From Planctomycetota bacterium (GTDB taxonomy: Bacteria; Planctomycetota; Phycisphaerae; Phycisphaerales; Phycisphaeraceae), in NCBI GenBank assembly GCA_024276075.1, contig JAJRXX010000056.1:1-40321 (forward strand): 40,321 nucleotides of DNA, in the 5' to 3' direction. Below, piece after piece: positions 9,876 to 40,321 of this stretch (within the stretch, counting starts at the first letter, position 1; every line of letters starts with the position of its first letter). The notes below the pieces were generated by a model that worked only from the letters and a program-made list of their open reading frames with translations, did not search any database and was not told the DNA's origin. Made by a program: the position numbers and the translations under genes.

Positions 9876-9990
9876 TTGTGACATTTGATCCCACGGACAA
9901 GAACTGTAGAACAATACTTATGGTGATTGGTATCACTGAATTGTTATGATCAAACAGAAAGCTCTGGCGGGTGGCTGGGCATGCGACTCA

Positions 9991-10092
9991 TACCAATCAA
10001 GATTGGTACTTGCGCAACATCTGCGAACGCAGGAACAGAACAGACAATAACTTACATCACCTACAACGCGCTAGAAATATACGCAATGCGTA
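9991..10092. mobile_element. Miniature element, family B copy 1 (102 bp)
   Basis: Starts TACCAATCAAGATTGGTAC and ends AATATACGCAATGCGTA. Each end is a hairpin: ACCAATCAAGATTGGT at 9992-10007 and ATACGCAATGCGTAT at 10079-10093. It is flanked by TCA on both sides (9988-9990 and 10093-10095). It aligns along its length with copies at 31653-31754 and 35846-35967, which share the core TACTTGCGC and the tail CGCGCT(A/G)(A/G)AAA. It has no coding capacity. It lies 37 bases before the lpxR start, so it occupies that gene's promoter region. Confidence 0.8.
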
Positions 10093-10129
10093 TCATGACG
10101 CTCCGAACACGATGCGATAGGTATACCGG

Positions 10130-26655: not shown

Positions 26656-27021
26656 TTCTATTAAGTATTAAATATATAATCTTCGTCGTAATAAGAGTCC
26701 TGTCGGAATGTGGAAAACCAGGCCATTAACTATACAATGTTTTAAAATACAACCACTTAAGAACACATTGAAAATTGAACAATCTGTCGGAATTAAGGGT
26801 GTGACAGGATGGTAACGGACCGCTGTATCTGTGAATGGATGGCGAAACATTGTTCACCACAAGGTTTCGCTTGGCAAGTGGCAATAGGTTGTGTGCATTT
26901 TGACTCGTGTTGAAAGCAAATCCACGGGTTATCTACAGGTCTTATCGACAGGCTTCCGGGGGATTTGGGGTGCACTTGGAGCGGATGGAACTGAGGTCGA
27001 GAAGACCTTTGATGATAATTA
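26656..27021. other. Gene-free AT-rich stretch with DnaA-box-like sites (possible oriC)
   Basis: With the elements after it this stretch fills a 621-base gap between mutM and the 3' end of dnaA. The first 130 bases are strongly AT-rich, for example around 26663-26685 and 26725-26780. Sites resembling the DnaA box TTATCCACA are TTATCTACA (26929-26937) and TTATCGACA (26942-26950), four bases apart and on the same strand, TGTGGAAAA (26709-26717, the reverse of TTTTCCACA) and TGTGAATGG (26830-26838). Together with the adjacent dnaA this suggests a replication origin. Against it, none of the boxes is perfect and the flanking genes converge on the stretch. No gene is seen. Confidence 0.4.
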
Positions 27022-27122
27022 GAGCACCTTGCATAAATAATCGCCATGTCAGTTCTGGAGTAGGGCAGGTCATTGACCTGCCTTCTTCTTGGGGAGATGG
27101 AGAATAATTACGCAAGTTGCTC
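27022..27122. mobile_element. Miniature element, family A1 copy 1 (101 bp)
   Basis: Begins GAGCACCTTGCATAAATAAT and ends AATTACGCAAGTTGCTC, forming imperfect inverted ends of about 25 bases with 5 mismatches. TA dinucleotides border it (27020-27021 and 27123-27124). The centre holds the palindrome GGCAGGTCATTGACCTGCC. Read in the opposite orientation it is identical, base for base, to 40123-40223. It encodes nothing. TA flanks with short inverted ends fit a miniature derivative of an IS630/Tc1-type transposon. Confidence 0.85.
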
Positions 27123-27124
27123 TA

Positions 27125-27246
27125 GAGCACTTGGCATAATTAATCACCATTGACCGGGTGGCACGGCTTGCTTGCAAGCCGTGAAATACAGATGCCTGTT
27201 ACACCTACGATCCAATCAAGATTGAAAATATTGACGCCAGTTGCTC
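27125..27246. mobile_element. Miniature element, family A2 copy 1 (122 bp), uninterrupted
   Basis: Abuts family A1 copy 1, sharing the TA at 27123-27124, and ends before the TA at 27247-27248. Ends are GAGCACTTGGCATAATTAAT and its imperfect inverse GACGCCAGTTGCTC, related to the A1 ends. It contains a 10-bp stem palindrome, CACGGCTTGCTTGCAAGCCG. The same element occurs at 31576-31802, there interrupted by a family B element; this copy preserves the empty site TGTTACACCTACG. It lies 30 bases beyond the dnaA stop. Confidence 0.82.
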
Positions 27247-27276
27247 TAGTTGCTTGCTGGTAGAGGGGGTGCTGTT

Positions 27277-30355: not shown

Positions 30356-31489
30356 TTACCCTGATATTTCTTGTAGTACGTCTTGGGCTAATTGTTTCTG
30401 GTCAGGGCCTTCGAGCCGATTGATCGCTGCGGACAGGAGTTCCTTGGCGCGCTGGCGGCGGTTGAGGTACCGGGCGTAGATCAAACCCAGGATCAGCTCG
30501 ACCTGCTCACGCTGACTGTAGGCTGTGTAGGTGTTCAGGAACAGCTCGTACGCCTGAGCCGCGCTGCTGTACCGCTGTTGTGACATCAACTGGTTTGCCA
30601 GGTCAAGCTGCTGCTGCTGACCCATCACCTGGCCGGCGTCTAGATCGAGTAGTTGCGTGTACGCCTCTGCGGCGCCTTCGAGGTTGTGCGTGCTCACTGC
30701 CTTTCCGATCTGGGCGCGGAGCTGCATGATCTGCTCCCGCTGAGGGTTGGCGGGCTGATTGTCGTCTGTGTCGGGTGGCCCCGTAGTATCGCCGTGGCCC
30801 CAGGGTTGGTAGCCCTTGCGCGTTAGTGCTGTGAATTGCGCTTTACGCCTGCGGTGTTCGATCAGTGCTAACAGGTCGTAAGGCTCGCGTGGCAGCAGCC
30901 CGATCCACATGAGTCCCATCGCGATTCCGAATCCATATGCGTAGCCCGACAAGTGCGCCAGGTACGCCACGCCGCCGAATTGTGCCAGGAACATCACCGC
31001 GTCCTGAGCAATGTAGAACAGGATGACCACCATGCTCGACACCTCGATCACGCCGATAAAGATGAACCAATAGACAATTGTGATGTTGCTCATAGGGAAC
31101 CAGACCAGGTACGCCCCACTGACCGCCGCCACCGCGCCGCTCGCGCCCAGCACGGGGTTCGGCTCGACCAACGCGTGTCCCAGCCCGGCGAGTATCCCAC
31201 CGGCCAGATAAAAGCACAGGTAACCCAGCTTGCCGAGCCGATCTTCGACGCTGTTGCCGAACACATACAAAAACAGCATGTTGCCTATCAGATGCATCCA
31301 ACTCGCGTGCAGGAACTGGTACGTGATGAATTGATAGAACCGCGGCAGGGCGGGGTTGAGCACAAACGCCGACACGGACCCACCGCGATTGGATATGAAC
31401 ACGAAGATCAGCACGTTCACAGCAATGATGCTGCGGTTGACCCAGGGCGTGTGGCGCAGTTGGCGATCAGTACGGACCGGGAAGAACAT
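30356..31489 (-). CDS. Rhomboid family intramembrane serine protease with C-terminal TPR-like tail
   Basis: A membrane protease that cleaves transmembrane helices. From the ATG at 31489 (377 residues) the start MFFPVRTDRQLRHTPWVNRS is typical of this rhomboid branch. HASWMHLIGNMLFLYVFG (about 61-78) is the conserved His/Asn loop, GASGA (115-119) holds the catalytic Ser118 and AHLSGYAYG (178-186) the catalytic His179. About six membrane helices are visible. After residue 200 a cytoplasmic tail of 175 residues has two helical pairs resembling TPR units (NLEGAAEAYTQLLDLDAG, QRYSSAAQAYELFLNTY). The frame is open to 31591, but the added residues derive partly from a miniature element (31576-31802), so I reject that start. 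The Shine-Dalgarno spacing at 31489 is poor. Substrates are unknown. Confidence 0.9.
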   Translation of the reverse strand: MFFPVRTDRQLRHTPWVNRSIIAVNVLIFVFISNRGGSVSAFVLNPALPRFYQFITYQFLHASWMHLIGNMLFLYVFGNSVEDRLGKLGYLCFYLAGGILAGLGHALVEPNPVLGASGAVAAVSGAYLVWFPMSNITIVYWFIFIGVIEVSSMVVILFYIAQDAVMFLAQFGGVAYLAHLSGYAYGFGIAMGLMWIGLLPREPYDLLALIEHRRRKAQFTALTRKGYQPWGHGDTTGPPDTDDNQPANPQREQIMQLRAQIGKAVSTHNLEGAAEAYTQLLDLDAGQVMGQQQQLDLANQLMSQQRYSSAAQAYELFLNTYTAYSQREQVELILGLIYARYLNRRQRAKELLSAAINRLEGPDQKQLAQDVLQEISG

Positions 31490-31575
31490 CCCCTCATGGT
31501 AATGCTTATCCGTTTCGGGTGACGTTGAGCGGGATTGCCGAGTGCGAGGGGTGGGCTGGGCACCGTTGATGGCTA

Positions 31576-31802
31576 GAGCAACTGGTGTCATTAATCTTCA
31601 TTGACCGGGTGGCACGGCTTGCTTGCAAACCGTGAAATACAGATGTTTGTTACACCAATTCAATTTAATACTTGCGCGGCGTCTACGAACGTGGGGATAG
31701 GACAGGCAATGGCTTACATCACTTGCGACGCGCTGAAAATATACGCAATGCGTATTACACCTACGATCCAATCAAAATGGTAAATATTGACGCCAGTTGC
31801 TC
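31576..31802. mobile_element. Family A2 miniature element copy 2, split by a family B element
   Basis: Flanked by TA (31574-31575 and 31803-31804). Its ends and the stem CACGGCTTGCTTGCAAACCG match the 122-bp copy at 27125-27246. It is 227 bases long, exactly 122 plus 105, and the extra 105 bases are a 102-base family B element plus one 3-base TTA duplication. One stem base differs from copy 1, so this copy has also drifted. Confidence 0.85.
31653..31754. mobile_element. Miniature element, family B copy 2 (102 bp), nested
   Basis: Begins CACCAATTCAATTTAATACT and ends AATATACGCAATGCGTA, with TTA on both sides (31650-31652 and 31755-31757). It interrupts the family A2 element between TGTTA and CACCTACG, sequences joined directly in the uninterrupted A2 copy at 27125-27246. 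It has the same length as copy 1 at 9991-10092. The left hairpin has decayed; the right one (ATACGCAATGCGTAT) is intact. Confidence 0.85.
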
Positions 31803-31833
31803 TAGCCTATCGGGTCCCGCGTGTGAACGCACG

Positions 31834-35720: not shown

Positions 35721-36025
35721 ACGCTGACCAAGCTGGGCGCTTTGCTCAAAGCGTGCCTGACACGATCAAGGGGGTGGTGATCAGCGTGGCTGTGGGGTCC
35801 TGTGCTGTAGCGATTGGCGCTGAGCGGGTCGTATTGCCGACCTTATACCAATCAAGATTAATACTTGCGCAGCATCTGCGAACGCGGGAAACAGAACAGA
35901 CAATAACTTACATCGCCTACAACAACTTACATCAACTACAACGCGCTAGAAACATACGCAATGTGTATTACAGTCGCATAGGTAGTCCAGTTGCACAGCT
36001 AGTCGTTGGAGATGACCGTTTATGA
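35708..36025 (+). CDS. Possible small protein, extended by a miniature element
   Basis: An ATG at 35708 inside the end of ddl opens a 105-codon frame whose TGA overlaps the ftsQ ATG (ATGA at 36022-36025). It begins MWKLDADQAGRFAQSVPDTI and has a hydrophobic stretch KGVVISVAVGSCAVAIGA. Codons 47 to about 87 are translated from the family B element. Removing the element and one TTA copy would end the frame after 50 codons, at TAG 35983-35985. Whether either form is a real gene is doubtful: there is no clear Shine-Dalgarno and I recognise no family. Confidence 0.28.
   Translation: MWKLDADQAGRFAQSVPDTIKGVVISVAVGSCAVAIGAERVVLPTLYQSRLILAQHLRTRETEQTITYIAYNNLHQLQRARNIRNVYYSRIGSPVAQLVVGDDRL
35721..36021. 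other. ddl-ftsQ spacer
   Basis: These 301 bases hold the family B element copy 3 (35846-35967) and possibly the small frame starting at 35708. GGAG at 36008-36011 serves ftsQ. No terminator-like hairpin with a T-run is seen, so ftsQ may be co-transcribed with ddl. Confidence 0.5.
35846..35967. mobile_element. Miniature element, family B copy 3 (122 bp, internal 20-bp duplication)
   Basis: Begins TACCAATCAAGATTAATACT and ends CATACGCAATGTGTA, with TTA on each side (35843-35845 and 35968-35970). It is 20 bases longer than the other two copies because AACTTACATCGCCTACAAC is repeated imperfectly as AACTTACATCAACTACAAC. It sits between ddl and ftsQ. Confidence 0.82.
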
Positions 36026-38299: not shown

Positions 38300-39985
38300 A
38301 TGGTCAACAGCAAAGCCAGATTTACCACTTTCGTTATGGTGCCGTGTGCGATCACGTTGCTACTGGCGCTGCACGTGGCCGCTCAGCAGCAAGTCGGTGA
38401 CGGCAGGGGGCTCGACGCGAATTTGCAAATCGGCTCGGGTGGCGTTAATCAGCCAGGCGCTAGGGTGGGATACTTAAGGGGCAACGACATTATCACCGGT
38501 AACGTGCCCGGTCTGGGGTATTTCCACGGCAGCGTACCCTATAAAGCTGGCAATGAGTTCCGCGGTACGCTCGGCAGCGATACGCTCTTCCGCTTCCAGG
38601 CGCGCAGCCTCCCCGTACCACAGGCGCTAGGTACGACCTACATACCCGGAACACAGCAGAGCCCGGTGAGCGTCTACCGAACCTTTTCCAGCGTACCGTC
38701 ACAAGCGGGAGTCCCTATCGGTCAATCTCGTCTCACGACCCCGGCCACCCCATACAACAGCGCTGGCGTGGTCGTTTACACCCCTGCTCAAGCCTATAGC
38801 AGTCCCGCGTCGAGCATGCGTCGGAATGATCAGCCCGTAGGTGTCTATACCCAGCCCGACGGTCGACTACTCGAACTCAGTGCGTCGCCTCTGCTGGGCC
38901 TGCGTGGTCGAGAGGTCGACGCTGCTCGTCTTACCACGGGGCGAACCGACAGCGTCGAGTCCGACGCGGATGAACCCGAGCTACGCCCCCCATCGCCTTA
39001 TGATCTTCAGCAGCCCGACGAGCAGGAAGAACCTGCGCCGTTACGCTCATCACTGCTTCCGCCGCCGAAACCAACTGCCCGGGCCACCCGCCTCATCGTA
39101 GGTACGCGGCCCATCGTTGTACCCGTCGTCCCGCTGGGTACGCACAGCATGGTCCAAGCCCCTGATGCCGTTACGACCAGTCAGGCTTATGAAGACCTTT
39201 TGGCGAAGATCGAGCAGAGTCGAAAACAGGCGCGTGACAATGCGGATAAGTCTAAATCGATACTTTCACTGCCGGGTGTGGACCTTCGGCCACGAGCACT
39301 GCCTTCGGGTTCACCGACTGTGGAGGTGCCCAAGCCTGTTCAGTTAAAGGCCCCCACACCACAGCAGCTCGACTACGCTCATACCGCCCGGCGCACCGCA
39401 CAGCAGGGGCAACATGACAGCCCGAATGATACGAAACGTGCGGACCAAACCCAGGCTATGCATGCGATCTTGCAGAAACTTAATTTCACCCTGCCCCCTG
39501 TGGCAACACTCGCCGACAACAAAGACACACAGGTCGACCAGATCATGCGCCGTGCCCAGGATGAGTTGACCGCTGGGCGGTACATGGATTCACAAGAACA
39601 CTATCGTCAAGCCCTGTGGCTACGGCCAAGTGACCCCATGGCTCGCGTGGGCATGGTACACGCGCAGATCGGCGCCGGTATGTTCCTCTCGGCTCACCTG
39701 AATCTCCGTACGCTTCTCGAACGCCACCCCGAGCTGATCAAGGTGCAGTATCAGCCCCACCTGCTGCCTAGGGCACAACAACTCGACTGGGTCCGCGACC
39801 AATTGGTAGACCTGATCGAGACAACGCAGGAGCCAGGACCGCCTCTGCTGCTGGCGTATCTGGGCTACCAGACCCAATCGCCTGTGGTTACAGAATACGC
39901 TCTCGACCTCGCCGCTGCGCGCGACACCGAAGATACTTTGACCAAGCTGCTACGCACCGTTTGGCTCGAAGAGCAACAGCAGTAA
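38300..39985 (+). CDS. Exported TPR-containing protein of unknown function
   Basis: A 561-residue protein. The signal peptide is about residues 1-28 (FVMVPCAITLLLALHVAAQQ). After it comes GLDANLQIGSGGVNQPG, a Gly-rich motif I associate with planctomycete envelope proteins, then a low-complexity Ser/Pro/Thr/Gln region of about 350 residues. The C-terminus contains a TPR pair around DQIMRRAQDELTAGRYMDSQEHYRQALWLRPSDPMARVGMVHAQIG, and the rest is helical. It has GGAGG at 38285-38289 ahead of its ATG. The TAA stop is directly the left flank of the IS630-type remnant. Export and TPR are seen; the function is unknown. It lies 73 bases after greA and may be co-transcribed with it. Confidence 0.75.
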   Translation: MVNSKARFTTFVMVPCAITLLLALHVAAQQQVGDGRGLDANLQIGSGGVNQPGARVGYLRGNDIITGNVPGLGYFHGSVPYKAGNEFRGTLGSDTLFRFQARSLPVPQALGTTYIPGTQQSPVSVYRTFSSVPSQAGVPIGQSRLTTPATPYNSAGVVVYTPAQAYSSPASSMRRNDQPVGVYTQPDGRLLELSASPLLGLRGREVDAARLTTGRTDSVESDADEPELRPPSPYDLQQPDEQEEPAPLRSSLLPPPKPTARATRLIVGTRPIVVPVVPLGTHSMVQAPDAVTTSQAYEDLLAKIEQSRKQARDNADKSKSILSLPGVDLRPRALPSGSPTVEVPKPVQLKAPTPQQLDYAHTARRTAQQGQHDSPNDTKRADQTQAMHAILQKLNFTLPPVATLADNKDTQVDQIMRRAQDELTAGRYMDSQEHYRQALWLRPSDPMARVGMVHAQIGAGMFLSAHLNLRTLLERHPELIKVQYQPHLLPRAQQLDWVRDQLVDLIETTQEPGPPLLLAYLGYQTQSPVVTEYALDLAAARDTEDTLTKLLRTVWLEEQQQ

Positions 39986-39997
39986 TACGCATCCCGA

Positions 39998-40119
39998 TTA
40001 ATTCGCGGTCGGTATCCATGAGGTGTTGCAGATGGAGTGGAGGTCGGCTTCGGCCAGGGCGTTCCAGGCATCTCGACTGGCGTCGAACAGGTCGTCGTAG
40101 TCTTCGAATACGCGGTTGG
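39998..40119 (-). pseudogene. C-terminal fragment of an IS630-family transposase
   Basis: The reverse strand reads ANRVFEDYDDLFDASRDAWN, then ALAEADLHSICNTSWIPTAN and stop. The pattern Tyr-Asp-x3-Asp-Ala-x3-Asp-Ala-Trp-Asn-x-Leu ending Ser-Ile-x4-Trp is the usual C-terminus of IS630 transposases. The DDE catalytic part is missing, so it is not functional. The stop lies within the terminal inverted repeat. Upstream it is cut by the family A1 element. Confidence 0.78.
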
Positions 40120-40122
40120 CTA

Positions 40123-40223
40123 GAGCAACTTGCGTAATTATTCTCCATCTCCCCAAGAAGAAGGCAGGTCAATGACCTGCCCTACTCCAGAACTGACATG
40201 GCGATTATTTATGCAAGGTGCTC
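40123..40223. mobile_element. Miniature element, family A1 copy 2 (101 bp), nested in the IS630 remnant
   Basis: Identical in reverse orientation to 27022-27122 over all 101 bases, with TA at both borders (40121-40122 and 40224-40225) inside a CTAG target. It carries the 19-base palindrome GGCAGGTCAATGACCTGCC. The identity suggests recent movement. It lies inside the older IS630 remnant. Confidence 0.88.
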
Positions 40224-40321
40224 TAGCCTCCTTGCCAAAAGTTCAATCCGCCCAACTATCCTTAGTCAGGCTACCGACCCATCCTACCAAATCGACCGCG
40301 AATTAATCGGGATGCGTATAA

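Follow-up and report, generated by a model that had tools for sequence, protein, structure and literature searches.

The stretch of DNA that we analysed, hereafter the window, spans 40,321 nucleotides and is contig C49 of an assembly of 2,880,729 bases in 77 contigs; loci elsewhere in this genome are given as contig:position. It contains short repeats of two families, A, with the forms A1 and A2, and B. Their arrangement is as follows, the intact A2, the split A2 and the target duplications being placed by direct reading.

9991 to 10092, plus strand: B, with TCA at 9988-9990 and 10093-10095
27022 to 27122, plus strand: A1, with ends like those of A2 and a different core; it abuts A2, the TA at 27123-27124 being common to both
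27125 to 27246, plus strand: uninterrupted A2 (122 bp), with an empty site for B at TTA; TA at 27123-27124 and 27247-27248
31576 to 31802, plus strand: A2 split by B; TA at 31574-31575 and 31803-31804
31650 to 31652: duplicated target TTA, left copy
31653 to 31754, plus strand: B within A2 (102 bp)
31755 to 31757: duplicated target TTA, right copy
35846 to 35967, plus strand: B with an internal tandem duplication (122 bp); TTA at 35843-35845 and 35968-35970
40120 to 40225, minus strand: second copy of A1, identical to 27020-27125 across 106 bases

Read directly from the window, the empty A2 carries TGTTACACCTACG. In the split copy the same place is interrupted, following TGTTTGTTA, by 105 bases, equal to B and a second TTA, which gives the copy its length (122+102+3 = 227). 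The original prediction had read 31576-31802 as an A2 that had been opened by a 102-bp element from a second family together with a duplicated TTA, with 27125-27246 as the empty form, and is exact to the base; equally exact on direct reading are its coordinates and triplets for the TNA on both sides of the B copies at 9991-10092 (TCA) and 35846-35967 (TTA). The nested B starts with CACC, most other B copies with TACC, and the extra length of the B at 35846-35967 is due to the internal duplication, of about 20 bp. With sizes of 101-122 bp in the window, A1, A2 and B have no gene inside. The identity of the two A1 copies over 106 bases on opposite strands (27020-27125 and 40120-40225) suggests that this element has moved recently. 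Close to the contig end lies a 27-base perfect inverted repeat (39985-40011 and 40293-40319). A listed reading frame on the minus strand, 30356 to 31591, begins inside the A2 end (31573-31591); the actual start probably lies more internally.

How widespread are these elements? First searches of the genome returned at least 40 matches for each family (40 scored, of 144 and 206 candidates). A core pattern of B gave 106 matches with up to three mismatches and a right-end pattern 146 with up to one, in both cases against none for the reversed-pattern control; a pattern for the ends of A gave 367 matches with up to two mismatches, against 20 for its control. The sequence that we read around such matches amounts to 469,434 of the 2,880,729 bases, in 148 stretches picked for their matches rather than as a random sample, and profile searches of these stretches yielded, after removal of overlaps, 128 B, 89 A2 and 40 A1 pieces. 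A1, A2 and B are thus short, gene-less and of high copy (106 B cores, 367 A ends), and they duplicate their target at constant borders (TNA for B, TA for A), as is characteristic of MITEs. Terminal inverted repeats are present in A, the A2 consensus forming a near-complete hairpin (-67 kcal/mol), while the ends of B, judged by eye, form an imperfect inverted repeat. Nearest-neighbour identity among the B copies has quartiles of 91, 95 and 97%.

In family A, TA stands on both sides of 83 of the 91 full-length copies in this genome, and in 76 of them in the form YTA...TAR. The genome holds five matches to PF13358, the catalytic domain of IS630. At the best of these, C45:76151, two ends about 1,016 bases apart agree with the A ends in 18-21 of 27 bases and enclose a gene split over two frames, the larger of which is recognized as an IS630 family transposase (NF033545, 2.2e-39). 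A relative, genome G012, likewise carries a copy, about 1,016 bases long, with overlapping frames of 111 and 220 residues and ends that agree with those of A in 16-21 of 27 bases. The A-like ends around IS630 genes were located with two to four mismatches allowed, and at this setting no A-like pair surrounds the gene at the other four PF13358 loci of the own genome, two of which lie at contig ends, or at six other loci in the relatives G012, G016 and G011 (seven checked of 12 fetched). The TA duplication, together with ends that an IS630-family element in this genome also bears, identifies A by sequence as an IS630-type MITE, and the IS630-family copy at C45 is the likely partner of the gene-less copies. 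Among 61 genomes, A2 DNA matches six including its own; outside the latter it is full-length only in G012, at best 80% identical, and the remaining four genomes match over about 30 bases each, the match lying at the central hairpin in three and at an end in the fourth. Hairpins resembling the A2 core, lacking A2 ends, occur in other genomes of the order (L189, L190, L191 and L194-L196, in G010, G004 and G045); these may represent a separate and older hairpin repeat, captured by A2.

For B, the comparison of empty and filled site had been taken to fix the ends of the family and to reveal a 3-base TNA duplication, and both proposals bear out across the genome: the same borders recur with identical TNA on both sides in 78 of the 101 full-length copies with a recognized right end. 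Differing borders or an absent TNA duplication were therefore not the outcome of the genome-wide tabulation of flanking triplets. The matched triplets are TAA (28), TTA (26), TCA (15) and TGA (9). Where several right ends were possible, the count of 101 favoured the one that gave a match, which affects two of 102 copies and leaves the count unchanged. For a recount, 102 of 129 raw profile hits were kept after exclusion of 25 partial ones and two lacking a recognized right end; the flanks match in 79, 78 of these being TNA, as compared with a mean of 26 of 102 and a maximum of 40 when right flanks were shuffled among the copies (2000 shuffles), a control that retains the preference for TNA itself. 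Among the 23 of 101 copies with unmatched flanks, 12 have TNA on both sides with a differing middle base, which could reflect recombination between two B copies or point mutation. In a logo of the flanks from 68 sites, including one AAT, strong constraint is confined to the T and A of TNA, and the wider flanks of these sites carry little signal except an excess of T nine and ten bases to the right. A repeat resembling GAGCCGCGACCGTCAGGGAGCGG is common to the flanks at C7:70321, C40:37687, C41:8939, C55:177098 and C74:38129, and GGAGCGG lies within 40 bases of six of 102 B copies, while among 5000 control TNA sites it does so at 83; such neighbourhoods are possibly another favoured target area of B.

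Outside its own genome, B DNA matches only one of the 61 genomes, G016, where the match spans 29 bases at the right end. With up to one mismatch allowed, this genome, placed in the same family as ours, has 37 right ends of B; 30 were fetched, of which 17 with a clear left end were measured and 13 set aside, and the measured copies are 101-102 bases long, with identical triplets, all TNA, in 10 of 17. In genome contigs the right-end pattern has seven matches, six in Dive100_bin2.50 (Planctomycetota bacterium) and one in CP070790, where inspection by eye showed no left end of B whose triplet matches. As the flanks are identical, G016 appears to be the same genome as Dive100_bin2.50. Virus contigs gave no exact match to the right-end pattern.

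TNA duplication marks the IS1031 group of IS5, and the duplication expected of an IS5-type (IS1031-like) derivative is present in B (78 of 101). Our search for a B transposase covered PF01609. The own genome has one PF01609 fragment, at a contig start, and by eye the end of this IS5-family fragment is unlike those of B (TACC..., ...GCGTA); none of 17 further matches in G016 and G012, several of them cut by contig ends, has B ends around the gene. Within this set, then, B has no ends in common with an IS5-family element. At three PF01609 loci of G016 (L276, L279 and L282) a whole B-like element stands beside or inside the match. Nor was an autonomous partner found among right ends without a core (21 ends from 20 stretches, with 100 of the 146 matches listed), all of which are B-like or hybrids with A save C4:26375 and C64:2463, where there is no clear B body, or at four loci of G016 whose left sides are unusual.

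The site filled in the window is not the only one of its kind. In the stretches read from this genome, B occupies this TTA of A2 at eight loci, six in one orientation and two reversed, the site reading TGTTACACC in the window and TATTACACC in one host:

Window (C49), C7:67166, C24:57537 and C40:32772: B in A2 with both A2 halves, one shared orientation
C63:42053 and C14:35697: B with the left A2 half only, orientation as in the four intact loci
C3:8703 and C23 end/C7 start: B with the left A2 half only, opposite orientation

The reading of empty versus filled site, made originally on the window, thus extends to all four intact loci; the four with the left half alone prove less. At C3:8703 B is reduced to its right end, adjoining an A1, and the end of C23 and the start of C7, which overlap by 110 identical bases, were counted as one locus. 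A-like sequence lies within 60 bases of 18 of the 101 full-length B copies; four copies have A2 on both sides, and all four sit at the same TTA, one of eight TNA sites in the A2 consensus. Given equal likelihood of the sites and independence of the events, the chance of four inserts sharing a site is (1/8)^3. Counting against this reuse, B at C24:12278 abuts a diverged relative of A2 at a different TTA, with no A2 remainder on the far side.

A general targeting of hairpins by B was considered and not adopted: stems of at least 8 occur within five bases of two of 78 B sites and of 33 of 3000 control TNA sites. Within 20 bases the figures are five of 78 and 36 of 3000, which is above control, but the A2 hosts fall there by design. 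Hairpins like the A2 core are found near four full-length B copies, C4:30874, C55:51044, C55:174343 and C53:9344.

Insertion also runs in the other direction. An A2 lies within B at C17:12655 and an A1 within B at C63:41951, with parts of B flanking both, and A elements mark the start or end of B copies at C25:53114, C39:16295, C57:27635, C63:9671, C30:110172 and C10:51619, and weakly so at C4:62129. At C63:41915-42190 the nest is three deep, the left half of an A2 holding a B that in turn holds an A1. Overall, an A end falls within three bases of B in six of 101 full-length B copies. Such mutual insertion would fit the taste of A for YTAR and of B for TNA, each element, or the sequence flanking it, offering the target of the other.

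Do the filled sites record repeated events or the spread of one? A single composite of A2 and B, formed once and propagated as a 227-bp MITE, would turn the loci with the same site into copies of one event, in line with the agreement of the four intact loci in site and orientation and with the 96.1% identity of the inserts at C49 and C7. These two fall in a clade of three B copies and could be of common origin. The inserts at C24 and C40, however, are only 78-83% identical to them and to each other and lie elsewhere in the B tree, so that the four represent three B lineages; the smallest clade to hold them all comprises 91 of 101 B copies. The hosts speak the same language: with B removed, each has its own nearest empty A2 (97.6, 96.8, 98.4 and 94.4% identical, with a tie of two at C24), and among themselves the four are 87.5-93.8% identical. 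Three B lineages and a different nearest empty A2 for each host point to recurrent insertion rather than to one copied composite, which, with B reversed at two further loci, we regard as quite improbable. On these relationships, at least three of the insertions of B into A2 are independent, and more than three are probable, since two loci hold B reversed.

Two further explanations were weighed. The assembly is fragmented and rich in repeats, contigs C5, C7, C23, C24 and C30 begin or finish inside these elements, and the overlap between the end of C23 and the start of C7 is exactly 110 bases, all of which would suit nested copies that are artefacts of assembly. However, this overlap is longer than B (102 bp) and A1 (101 bp), and mis-joins would not be expected to give target duplications with unlike flanks at four intact loci, which makes an artefact highly improbable. 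Alternatively, B could be no transposon but a REP- or RNA-like repeat with a structural or regulatory role, propagated through recombination. Its right end is indeed a small perfect palindrome, ATACGCA-A-TGCGTAT, that is present in another genus too. Yet the empty site exists, the TNA matches of the flanks far exceed those of shuffled pairings, the consensus folds weakly (-5.6 kcal/mol for 28 copies), and Rfam matches only a tRNA in the window; we consider such a nature of B scarcely credible.

Transposition of both families is the reading that we favour. A1 and A2 would be moved in trans by a transposase of the IS630/Tc1-mariner type, inserting at TA, mostly within YTAR, and duplicating the TA. 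Here the duplication, its context and the similar terminal repeats are observed, and from them we infer the movement in trans. B, in turn, would be moved by a DDE-type transposase that cuts TNA with a 3-base stagger and so duplicates it; the duplication is seen directly, and both the enzyme and its staggered cut are deduced from it. In the window, an A2 copy has taken up a B element at its TTA, which is a preferred landing site of B that was used independently several times in the genome, and A has jumped into B in turn. We hold this account as a whole to be very probable. It can be carried further, to a B that is the non-autonomous side of an undescribed family of TNA-specific transposases, distributed over at least two genera of one family and recognizing, around TGTTTGTTACACC, some feature of A2 that it uses as a permanent landing site, with A using YTAR in B, such that two unrelated MITEs serve as mutual harmless targets. 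This extension is speculative, and we think it unlikely to hold in full.

What sets this system apart from those already described? The type of element and mutual insertion are known; what draws interest is that one site is reused and that no transposase was found for B. The recurrence of one site in empty and in filled form defines, with no experiment needed, where both families begin and end, and constitutes a natural test of target choice, about 100 full-length B copies let the target rule (TNA, with a free middle base) and its exceptions be measured, and the missing transposase turns into a defined search problem. The TNA duplication of B is shared with the eukaryotic NuwaII group, of PIF/Harbinger-IS5 type, for which a 3-base TNA duplication is proposed in PMC4482050; the same paper gives the duplication of bacterial IS5 as ANT, not TNA. 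For A, the counterpart is ISY100, an IS630/Tc1-mariner element that inserts at TA with TA duplication; TA insertion by such an IS630-family enzyme was demonstrated in vitro (PMC2170065). The reference list of that paper names by title a CTAG preference of IS630, to which the YTAR setting of most A copies compares. Elements of this type duplicate TA as A does, but A has no gene. Correia elements and other prokaryotic MITEs, covered in the review PMC10969869, are high-copy and short, with terminal inverted repeats; by description, Correia elements resemble ours in copy number and length, in another host. The word 'nested' is absent from that review, and none of the papers searched joins 'nested MITE' with bacteria and insertion sequence, which is not proof of absence. 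The passages of PMC3049150 and PMC2170065 that we consulted did not contain one exact triplet reused inside another repeat or MITE. The closest parallel is with Streptococcus pneumoniae, whose BOX, RUP and SPRITE repeats are, according to PMC3049150, small interspersed repeats that insert into one another, RUP being 107 bp long with ends resembling IS630-Spn1. Likened by description, these and the A and B families agree in being small, mutually inserted repeats, although the host differs.
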